This document shows, in pieces, positions 6,949-42,319 of a DNA stretch of 64,000 bases. The translations under genes were made by a program, and so were the position numbers. Origin of the DNA: Lachnospiraceae bacterium. GTDB lineage: Bacteria; Bacillota_A; Clostridia; Lachnospirales; Lachnospiraceae. Numbering within the stretch: the first letter of the stretch is position 1; every line of letters starts with the position of its first letter. The notes beneath the pieces are model-generated. The model was not told the origin of the DNA and ran no database searches. It saw only the letters and a list, made by a program, of their open reading frames with translations. The DNA lies in the NCBI GenBank assembly GCA_017416505.1, contig JAFQCI010000062.1:62001-126000 (forward strand). Reading direction: 5' to 3'.

Positions 6949-7710
6949 ATGAAAAATCTTGGAGAATTTCGAATTCAGGATTTAAAAGAACTAAAGAATT
7001 TTAAATTCAGCTCCTTAAAAAATGTCAAAAAAACAGATGTATTAAAATGGTTTTCCAATAATAAAGAAATATTGGTTGCATTAATATATATCATTATTTA
7101 TTCCATCGTTTTTTATCTATTAGAAAAAAGACTGCCAAACGATGCCAATTATACCAGTATGTATTGTTCTTTGGATGATAAGATTCCATTTTGTGAATAC
7201 TTTTTAATCCCTTACTACACCTGGCACGCATTTATGGTAATTACTGTTTTGTACTTTTTATTTACTGACACCAAGGATTACCTTCGCTCCTGTATGATGA
7301 TATTCGGAGGTATGACGGTTTGTTGTATTATTTATTTCCTCTTCCCAAACGGACAAAATTTACGTCCTGCTGTGGATACTTTACGGGATAATATCTTTAC
7401 TGCAGAAATCATCCGTCTTTGGCAGGTAGATACCTGTACGAATGTATTTCCAAGTATTCATGTGTATGATTCTGTTGCAGCTTTCATTGTGGTTTGTAAA
7501 AGCCGGGAATTCCGAAAGAATACGTTAGTAAAATGGCTGATTGGTATTTTAGTGTTCTTAATTAGCATCTCCACTGTATTTTTAAAACAACATTCTATTT
7601 TAGATGGATTTGGAGCTTTGGTTCTGGCTGCTGTTATGTATGTAATCACGTATAAGGTATTGGATAATAAAATTAGTCAGTGTTCTTTTTTGAAGAAAAA
7701 TAAGGGGTAA
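6949..7710 (+). CDS. PAP2-family membrane phosphatase
   Basis: 253 residues. The start is set at the ATG at 6949 because GAGGTGA sits 5 bases upstream; an in-frame ATG at 6877 would overlap the preceding gene by 56 bases. About five or six membrane helices. The phosphatase motifs are visible: NGQNLRP (motif 1, Arg-Pro), VFPSIHVY (motif 2, catalytic Ser-x-His) and KQHSILDGFGAL (motif 3, His...Asp). The family dephosphorylates lipid phosphates such as phosphatidate or undecaprenyl diphosphate, or transfers phospho-headgroups, at the membrane. The spacing of the motifs and the cytoplasmic leader (residues 1-45) recall the inositolphosphotransferase-like subgroup. The substrate is unknown. Confidence 0.75.
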   Translation: MKNLGEFRIQDLKELKNFKFSSLKNVKKTDVLKWFSNNKEILVALIYIIIYSIVFYLLEKRLPNDANYTSMYCSLDDKIPFCEYFLIPYYTWHAFMVITVLYFLFTDTKDYLRSCMMIFGGMTVCCIIYFLFPNGQNLRPAVDTLRDNIFTAEIIRLWQVDTCTNVFPSIHVYDSVAAFIVVCKSREFRKNTLVKWLIGILVFLISISTVFLKQHSILDGFGALVLAAVMYVITYKVLDNKISQCSFLKKNKG

Positions 7711-7790
7711 TGACAAAATTGCCTGATGGATAATAAAATCAAGGTGGATGACAAAACTTGCCTAATAGAAAACAAAATCAAGGGGGATAA
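7711..7790 (+). repeat. Two tandem 38-39 base direct repeats plus a partial third
   Basis: Immediately after the PAP2 stop codon, 7711-7748 and 7749-7787 are near copies (both begin TGACAAAA, contain AAAATCAAGG and end GGA). A third partial unit starting at 7788 (TAACAAAATTGCC) runs into the left arm of the first long hairpin. Confidence 0.7.
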
Positions 7791-7791
7791 C

Positions 7792-8026
7792 AAAATTGCC
7801 GGTATCCTATCGGGTTGAAAGTTCCAATGTCCGGAGCTAAAAAATCTAAGCATCTTTATTTCATATGTATAAAACGGACGTAACCGCCCCAACAGAGCCG
7901 TCCATGGCTCGGTTGAGGCTTTGTCGGACCTCCATGTCCGACAATTACTGTGTTACGAAAAAGATGCTAAGTTTTTTTACGCTCCTACCAAAGTCGCTTT
8001 CACCCGAATAGGATACCGGCAATTTT
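7792..8026. repeat. 235-bp long hairpin element, copy 1
   Basis: The outermost 19 bases (AAAATTGCCGGTATCCTAT) pair perfectly with the last 19, extended by GGGT/ACCC and GAAAG/CTTTC. Inside, GGAGC pairs with GCTCC, and an A-rich arm ending AAGCATCTTT pairs with AAAGATGCTAAG. The centre has GAGCC-GGCTC and TTGTCGGAC-GTCCGACAA hairpins. The core is homologous to the reverse complement of copy 2, but the outer arms are not. No plausible coding frame crosses it. It lies between the convergent PAP2 gene and atp operon. Confidence 0.85.
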
Positions 8027-8202
8027 CAATTTACATTTTGATTTTTTTCAAAAGTTTTCTTTTCCTATCAAAATACTATAAATAATATCTGACAACTCCC
8101 GGCTAGCACCATAAACGATATCTGATGACACCATCAAACCTCGCCCTCTACTCTTGCATATCAAAAACAACCTCACCCGACCGTCTTTCGAAGTGTAAAT
8201 TG

Positions 8203-8437
8203 GTCAAATTTTGATAATTATGTCTGTGCTGTAGCGACTTTGGGAGGAGTATAGAAAATCTTAGCATCTTTATCACCGTCAGGAATTGCCGGACAGGGAC
8301 GTCCGGCAAAGTCCCCTCCGAGCCAAGGACGGCTCGTTTGGGGCGGTTCCGTCCATCTTAAAATAGCAAACAAAGATGCTTAGATTTTCTGCTCCGGACA
8401 ACGGAGCTACACACAGACATAATTATCAAAATTTGAC
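8203..8437. repeat. 235-bp long hairpin element, copy 2 (inverted relative to copy 1)
   Basis: The first and last 26 bases are perfectly complementary (left arm begins GTCAAATTTTGATAATTATG). The core carries the same blocks as copy 1 in reverse complement: TCTAAGCATCTTT, AACCGCCCCAA, GAGCCGTCC, TGGCTCGG and the hairpin GCCGGAC/GTCCGGC. Length is identical to copy 1. The 176 bases between the copies (8027..8202) show no gene. Confidence 0.85.
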
Positions 8438-8450
8438 TATAACACATTCA

Positions 8451-8501
8451 AAAAAATCCCCCATCGAACACCGTTTTATTCCGATATTCATGGGGGGAAT
8501 T
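8451..8501 (-). terminator. Terminator of the ATP synthase operon
   Basis: On the minus strand ATTCCCCCCAT pairs with ATGGGGGAT across a roughly 30-base loop and is followed by TTTTTTT. It lies 60 bases beyond the atpC stop codon. Confidence 0.75.
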
Positions 8502-8563
8502 TCATATTATGATATACCAAGTGAGTAATATTCCGAATTACTCCGCGCTTAGCGTTTTCATCC

Positions 8564-8971
8564 TTATCGTTTACTTCCTAACTGGATACGTGCCAAAGAC
8601 CTCTTCAGTGCCAATTCTGCCTTAGCAATATCAATGTCGGCTTCTTTTCCACTTAATCTTCTTTCTGCACGAATCTTTGCTTCCTGGGCTCTTGCCACAT
8701 CGATTTCATCCGGCCATTCCACAGACTCTGCCATAATGGTGATTTTATCCTCTAAGACTTCAATAAAACCAGCGTGTAAGGCAGCTTCTTTTACGCCCTC
8801 CTCTGTATGAATCCGGATTACACCAGGTTCCACAATAAAGGTCATAGGAATATGTTTCGGATAAATTCCAACATCTCCTTCTGAAGTATGAAGTTCCACA
8901 AAAGAAGCATCTCCTTCATAAAAGATTCTGTCAGGATTTATTATTTTTAACAAAAATGTTCCATCTGCCAT
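8564..8971 (-). CDS. atpC: F1Fo ATP synthase epsilon subunit
   Basis: 135 residues. An N-terminal beta-sandwich (ADGTFLLKIINPD...FYEGDASFVELHTSEGDVGIYPKHIPM, seen here as consecutive motifs) is followed by the C-terminal helical hairpin (RAQEAKIRAERRL...). It belongs to the central stalk and modulates ATP hydrolysis. Last gene of the atp operon, 49 bases after atpD. Ribosome site GGAGGATAAAGA precedes the ATG. Length is normal for the family. Confidence 0.97.
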   Translation of the reverse strand: MADGTFLLKIINPDRIFYEGDASFVELHTSEGDVGIYPKHIPMTFIVEPGVIRIHTEEGVKEAALHAGFIEVLEDKITIMAESVEWPDEIDVARAQEAKIRAERRLSGKEADIDIAKAELALKRSLARIQLGSKR

Positions 8972-15187: not shown

Positions 15188-15215
15188 ACGTCTAACCTCC
15201 TTCATTTATTTTGTT

Positions 15216-15391
15216 GATACCAGGGTCAAAAGGACATACTTTTCATGCTTGCATGAAAAAGTATGGCTTTGGGACCCGCAAAACATGAGAAAGCAGCCCG
15301 AACAGGGCGGATTTCGAATGTTTTTAGAATTGCGTGAGCACACAGTGCGTAGCAATTCGTAGGTATCAGGGGTCAAAATACCTTTTGACCC
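15216..15391 (+). repeat. 176-bp structured dispersed repeat, copy 1, inside the atp operon
   Basis: Begins GATACCAGGGTCAAAAGG and ends CCTTTTGACCC. Contains the hairpins CATACTTTTCATG...CATGAAAAAGTATG and GGGTCAAAA-TACC-TTTTGACCC, plus GAGCACA.AGTGCG and GGTATCA, which is complementary to the TGATACC start. Nearly identical to 42141..42319 in the same orientation, and related to a decayed copy at 19121..19202. It separates atpI-like and atpB and is antisense to the operon. The open frames inside it are incidental. Confidence 0.9.
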
Positions 15392-42136: not shown

Positions 42137-42140
42137 TTTT

Positions 42141-42319
42141 GATACCAGGGTCAAAAGGTCATACTTTTCATGCTTGCATGAAAAAGTATGACTTTGGGAC
42201 CCGCAAAAACATGAGAAAGTAGCCCGAATAGGGCGGATTTCGAATGTTTTTAGAATTGCGAGAGCACAAAGTGCGGAGCAATTCGTAGGTATCAAGGGGT
42301 CAAAATACCTTTTGACCCC
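42141..42319 (+). repeat. 179-bp structured dispersed repeat, copy 2
   Basis: Nearly identical to 15216..15391: same GATACCAGGGTCAAAAGG opening, CATGCTTGCATG hairpin tip, TTTGGGACCCGCAAAA, GCCCGAATAGGGCGG, GTTTTTAGAATTGCG, GCAATTCGTAGGTATCA and GGTCAAAATACCTTTTGACC ending. It directly follows the dehydrogenase stop codon. Confidence 0.9.

Follow-up and report, generated by a model that had tools for sequence, protein, structure and literature searches.

A pair of long self-complementary elements was found in the 64,000-nucleotide stretch of Lachnospiraceae DNA analysed here (the window), between the 3' ends of two convergent genes which, from their translations, we take to be a PAP2-like gene and atpC of the atp operon. 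The initial annotation had reported two 235-nt hairpins at this locus, and both are real (Table 1). Folding of the two 235-nt RNAs against 200 shuffles gave z-scores of -12.6 for copy 1 and -13.5 for copy 2, and none of the shuffles folded as well. The arms of copy 1 (7792-7844 and 7974-8026) are 75% complementary over 53 nt without gaps and do not mark its outer limit, because weaker pairing extends outward, while the 26 outermost nucleotides of copy 2 (8203-8228 and 8412-8437) are 100% complementary, as had been described. Homology between the cores, which lie inverted to each other, covers 81 nt at 81% and 42 nt at 86%, and the reported compensatory change, GTCGGAC/GTCCGAC in one copy and GCCGGAC/GTCCGGC in the other, is present in the sequence. 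The 5' ends of both RNAs face one another over the spacer. The outer arms of the two copies are mutually unrelated and each pairs with its own partner; the outermost parts had also been called unrelated between copies, which is not wholly the case as both share GTAAATTG just outside the 5' arm.

Table 1. Coordinates of the two elements and their parts in the window.
Feature	Position	Strand	Basis or remark
Copy 1, entire self-complementary element	7792..8026	- (RNA sense on minus)	235 nt, arms and Rfam
Copy 1 core, RF01731 TwoAYGGAY	7826..7992	-	Rfam, 129.2 bits
Copy 1 5' arm outside Rfam model	7993..8026	-	Arm alignment
Copy 1 3' arm outside Rfam model	7792..7825	-	Arm alignment
Copy 1 hairpin 1, loop ATGGAG, C-G closing	7923..7942	-	Sequence and alignment to model
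Copy 1 hairpin 2, loop ATGGAC, C-G closing	7895..7910	-	Sequence and alignment to model
Spacer, 176 nt, separating the head-to-head copies; GTAAATTG adjoins each 5' arm on the outside	8027..8202	.	
Copy 2, entire self-complementary element, outer arms 26 bp perfect	8203..8437	+	235 nt, arms and Rfam
Copy 2 core, RF01731 TwoAYGGAY	8239..8402	+	Rfam, 117.5 bits
Copy 2 5' arm outside Rfam model	8203..8238	+	Arm alignment
Copy 2 3' arm outside Rfam model	8403..8437	+	Arm alignment
Copy 2 hairpin 1, loop AGGGAC, C-G closing	8288..8307	+	Sequence and alignment to model
Copy 2 hairpin 2, loop AAGGAC, C-G closing	8320..8335	+	Sequence and alignment to model

Two further features were observed in the window. 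A direct repeat of about 38 nt, present in three copies at 7697-7800, abuts copy 1 and its last unit enters the 3' arm. Two Clostridiales-1 RNAs (RF01699), for which we know of no role, occur on the plus strand at 15215-15368 and 42140-42294 with 129 and 143 bits.

Both copies match the Rfam family RF01731 (TwoAYGGAY, clan CL00106) across the full model and score well above its curated gathering score of 43, so the core was already known and the earlier statement that no known large clostridial RNA matches was wrong. All four window loops have the form A-N-GGA-N, with one of the four being a literal AYGGAY. The Rfam model has 168 positions whereas the window stems run about 35 nt beyond it at either end, and those of some relatives reach even farther out. 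The Rfam label of the family is Cis-reg. In the excerpts available, TwoAYGGAY was listed as a probable RNA and rated as not cis-regulatory (Weinberg 2010), CsrA binding was proposed for it from motif matches and its external stem was described as poorly conserved (PMC4333381), extra covarying pairs were found to lengthen an annotated TwoAYGGAY helix (PMC7657543, 2020), and the family appears among those with updated structures in Rfam 15. The same literature, as far as these excerpts extend, yielded nothing on copy number, mobility or head-to-head pairing. The RF01731 core is known, and what we did not find described in the papers searched is an apparently mobile, high-copy palindrome carrying this core at its tip.

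A total of 64 out of 397 genomes from the family of the closest genome (G001) were found to contain RF01731, and 62 of these exceed the curated cut-off; absences in this draw are not firm because strict filters were used and at most six candidates were scored per genome. Six of 50 genomes reached via relatives of a neighbouring protein contain it as well, and none of the 14 control genomes does. When seven genomes were scored in full, the numbers of matches were 50, 53, 47, 15, 8, 8 and 5 (E up to 0.001), with true copy numbers that may be somewhat lower because some matches are partial or lie at contig ends, where double counts are possible. A distant blastn search with 7700-8520 gave no match in plasmid and phage collections, and two loop patterns, narrow and exact, had 0 matches in viral contigs. 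The closest genome (L001/G001) retains an intact copy 1 and a copy 2 from which about the left two thirds have been lost. Another copy in G001 (L083, 1501-1663) is weak, scoring 41.5 bits and thus below the cut-off, is without pairing arms and resembles a decayed relic.

Close pairs, in which the gap between cores is less than 400 nt, were read by eye from the matches listed. At least 16 were found, several of them orthologues or paralogues, and every one has the head-to-head arrangement of the window pair, which is expected by chance in one of four cases. Pairs more than 400 nt apart show other orientations too, for example G090:C59.

One view of mobility comes from genome G034, where a pair lies upstream of a gene which, named by eye, is presumably parA/soj-like. 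Four congeners (G016, G443, G258 and G451), out of 20 genomes of the genus examined, match both flanks without the pair, with an interval between the flanks of 114-161 nt compared to 712-754 nt in G034. The remaining congeners had one flank matched well, or weaker pieces, and G019 had no flank match. At the pair-less sites the DNA is too diverged for an exact junction and no obvious hairpin was seen by eye. This G034 pair (L101, 1406-2191) also adjoins parS-like TTTCACGTGAAA sites, likewise identified by eye. At two orthologous sites in G034 and G019, a composite of about 520 bp faces opposite ways with respect to its flanks, for which either inversion or independent insertions could account. 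The composite ends are ATAATATTTCTTAT and ATAAGAAATATTAT (14-bp inverted) exactly at G034:C48, with near matches at both G019 sites and one side lost at G034:C10, and when fixed terminal inverted repeats were examined in other genomes the outer stems were variable. No target-site duplication was evident by eye at the copies and composites inspected. No clean empty site was found for the G019/G034 composites, the left flank not being syntenic in other genomes, and the genus of G090 offers one other genome, about 73-77% identical over the longer matches. A mobile palindromic element was among the alternatives offered by the initial annotation and is the best of them.

The search for more Lachnospiraceae copies that had been suggested did find them, and the outer arms beyond the Rfam model were aligned with their own partners in 80 of 89 copies, the other nine being short, without flank or duplicate. 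The mean score was 31.1, compared to a mean of 6.6 and a maximum of 24 for 251 mismatched controls combining arms from different genomes, related genomes included; 63 of the 80 copies pair above every control. The refuting outcome named in the initial annotation, a lack of more copies or copies with unpaired arms, did not occur. Pairing arms are absent in three of the aligned copies (L083, L165 and L192). Covarying pairs, defined as two Watson-Crick types with both sides changed and each type in at least two copies, make up 14/29 outer-arm pairs in G090, 25/62 in G360 and 11/18 in G189. These counts used 21 of 22, 17 of 21 and 11 of 17 copies respectively, since a G090 copy that is disrupted and two G360 copies that are divergent had been excluded in advance and the others lacked flank or length. 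Counted likewise, the cores gave 12/44, 4/51 and 23/47, so that the arms are not outstanding in every genome. Pairing in G360 extends about 80 nt past the Rfam model, and in G189 more matching stretches were seen by eye farther out. The arms are homologous inside copy families and, by eye, common sequence also occurs outside the arms in several genomes.

Wholesale swapping of arms was considered and rejected. Out of 266 same-genome pairs with inner-core identity of at least 0.75, one arm fell below 0.55 in 12 and both arms in none, in a test that is weak because this threshold lies at the random mean (0.54). The arms look gradually diverged. In one TwoAYGGAY copy the outer 5' arm is replaced by another repeat of about 330 bp, rich in GCGGTAA (L193, 17488-17818), which has about ten matching places in G090 and no match in Rfam at gathering score.

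If selection acted on an RNA stem of the sense strand, G:U pairs should exceed A:C mismatches. Under symmetric scoring the outer arms contain 78 G:U against 103 A:C, whereas the Rfam outer stem has 26 against 15 in 85 copies. In the controls, which were taken from related DNA and comprise 18 tRNA acceptor stems and 58 terminator-like hairpins, the figures are 28 against 8. The core hairpins of 53 copies consist of 686 Watson-Crick pairs, 5 G:U, 2 A:C and 49 others, so G:U is scarce in the core as well, and the outer stem and hairpins combined give 31 G:U against 17 A:C. The arms differ from both the controls (p 0.0002) and the core (p 0.009), and the core shows no clear difference from the controls (p 0.23), all of these p values being optimistic because the copies are not independent. 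The missing G:U excess of the arms depends on symmetric scoring, since RNAalifold structures, which favour G:U, give G:U:A:C ratios of 49:36 in the arms and 43:19 in the cores. The tallies make the core weakly RNA-like and the arms less so. Selection for a folded RNA or a DNA cruciform had been proposed for the elements; something does keep the fold and, as to an RNA or a DNA cause, the arms are without a G:U excess under symmetric scoring. We infer that arm complementarity is kept mainly at the DNA level and not by selection on a sense RNA stem, although selection on RNAs from both strands would give the same pattern.

The loops at the tip are conserved. In copies of at least 150 nt (n=86), where GGA itself was set by the search rule, an ANGGAN hexaloop was found in hairpin 1 of 83 copies, with C-G closing in 84 of the 85 assigned. 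In hairpin 2, ANGGAN on a firm stem (at least 4 of 5 Watson-Crick pairs) occurs in 49 of the 86 copies and A-N-GGA-N on a weaker stem in nine more. In about 20 of 21 copies of G360 and in 5/5 of G426 the leading A is missing and hairpin 2 has YGGAT instead, so that the second site no longer conforms to ANGGAN there. The YGGAT loop (L133-L152, L188-L192) is one base shorter than ANGGAN and represents a lineage-specific change in a presumed CsrA site. ANGGAN is given as the motif of RsmA/CsrA hairpins in the available portion of PMC3791407.

CsrA (PF02599) was found in 210 of the 397 genomes, and its distribution follows that of RF01731: 61/64 genomes with the element encode it compared to 149/333 without (Fisher p 8e-16, kinship not corrected). 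The sample of 50 genomes gave 5/6 compared to 25/44, and three of the 14 control genomes encode CsrA. Among the genomes with the element, a CsrA match is absent in G403, G214 and G364 and, from the smaller sample, G046; an incomplete assembly is possible for G403, which has 15 RF01731 matches. The closest genome encodes an ordinary member of the CsrA family that matches the solved entry 2jpp at 5.5e-15, an entry we take to be RsmE bound to RNA.

The element is a multicopy repeat with long self-complementary arms that occurs in head-to-head pairs, is absent from congeners at one locus and lies in opposite orientation at orthologous sites, and its GGA hairpins are conserved in genomes that nearly all encode CsrA. 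The best reading of these sequence comparisons, to which we give about an even chance, is that it is a mobile, non-coding palindromic repeat (fold-back or MITE-like) of Lachnospiraceae intergenic regions with TwoAYGGAY at its apex, whose transcript would present CsrA sites.

The most serious competitor, possible though somewhat doubtful, is a purely selfish palindrome of the MITE or REP type, in which the hairpins are sites for a transposase or another factor on single-stranded or cruciform DNA and CsrA is irrelevant. MITEs, fold-back repeats and REP palindromes are short, non-coding, intergenic and multicopy with inverted repeats, and the TwoAYGGAY element resembles them in all of these and in its absence from relatives. 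It is unlike them in having no target-site duplication evident by eye, outer stems that vary between copies with compensation, and a conserved RNA motif at the tip. The lack of a G:U excess in symmetrically scored arms, the almost entirely Watson-Crick core hairpins, the number of matches per genome (up to 53), the opposite orientation of the composites, their inverted ends (exact at one, near matches elsewhere) and the loss of A from hairpin 2 in two genomes all suit a selfish repeat, but hairpin 1 fits the CsrA/RsmE motif and the presence of the element tracks CsrA.

A stand-alone sRNA gene like CsrB or RsmZ, a proposal for TwoAYGGAY dating from 2014, would explain the GGA hairpins and the CsrA link and is improbable on the remaining evidence. 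Five promoter-like sites in 7650-8600, against 2.2 (sd 1.3) expected, favour it, one of them (8051-8022 on the minus strand, 9 of 12) being located at the copy 1 5' arm. However, a scan of the same interval found no terminator after either copy; its one terminator-like site lies within copy 1, against 1.0 expected. In addition, three genomes have about 50 matches each, and the arms have no G:U excess under symmetric scoring. The CsrB/CsrC/RsmX/Y/Z sRNAs likewise display ANGGAN loops in stable hairpins in genomes with CsrA, whereas the TwoAYGGAY element carries one or two sites in each RNA, gave no terminator in the scan, and has many dispersed copies and long palindromic arms.

A cis-regulatory UTR element of neighbouring genes, in the window the atp operon and the PAP2-like gene, is very improbable. 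It agrees with the Rfam label and with G360, where 11/18 copies lie between divergent genes, but the orientations of copies relative to their neighbours are mixed (AA 22, SS 16, AS 16 and SA 13 among 67 copies with both neighbours available, using ORFs of at least 80 aa without a gene caller), the 2010 rating in its available excerpt was negative, and part of copy 2 is missing from the closest relative. Overlap with an ORF of more than 600 nt was seen for one of 89 copies, and on balance the genomic setting suits intergenic insertion better than a fixed UTR role. Insertion of the core into terminators or other unrelated hairpins that already existed, also raised by the initial annotation, is now disfavoured and hardly credible, for the unrelated arms of the window copies and the outer end of the copy 1 3' arm, common to the adjacent 38-nt tandem repeat, would suit it but arms are homologous and covarying within copy families, common sequence lies outside them and the pair-less sites have no obvious hairpin (both by eye).

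Under the favoured reading of a mobile palindrome with CsrA sites, read-through transcripts in the sense direction would fold, the folded stem would present one or two putative CsrA sites and CsrA would bind the presented loops, through which the element would act as a decoy or local brake. Fold-back copying or palindrome repair at the DNA level would keep the arms complementary. A bolder version, which we consider rather unlikely as a whole, is that the palindrome spreads a ready-made CsrA decoy, that the level of free CsrA is set or buffered by tens of copies in a genome, and that the arms template each other at the DNA level. Renewal of the arms at the DNA level, if true, would account for the coexistence of a conserved RNA core with arms that change fast and stay complementary. 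Covariation in such repeats has to be read with caution, as its source may be upkeep of the palindrome in addition to RNA function. An orphan motif from 2010 onward, TwoAYGGAY acquires a testable role as the tip of an apparently mobile, high-copy palindrome that tracks CsrA, and mobile DNA would thereby be connected with a global regulator found in gut bacteria.
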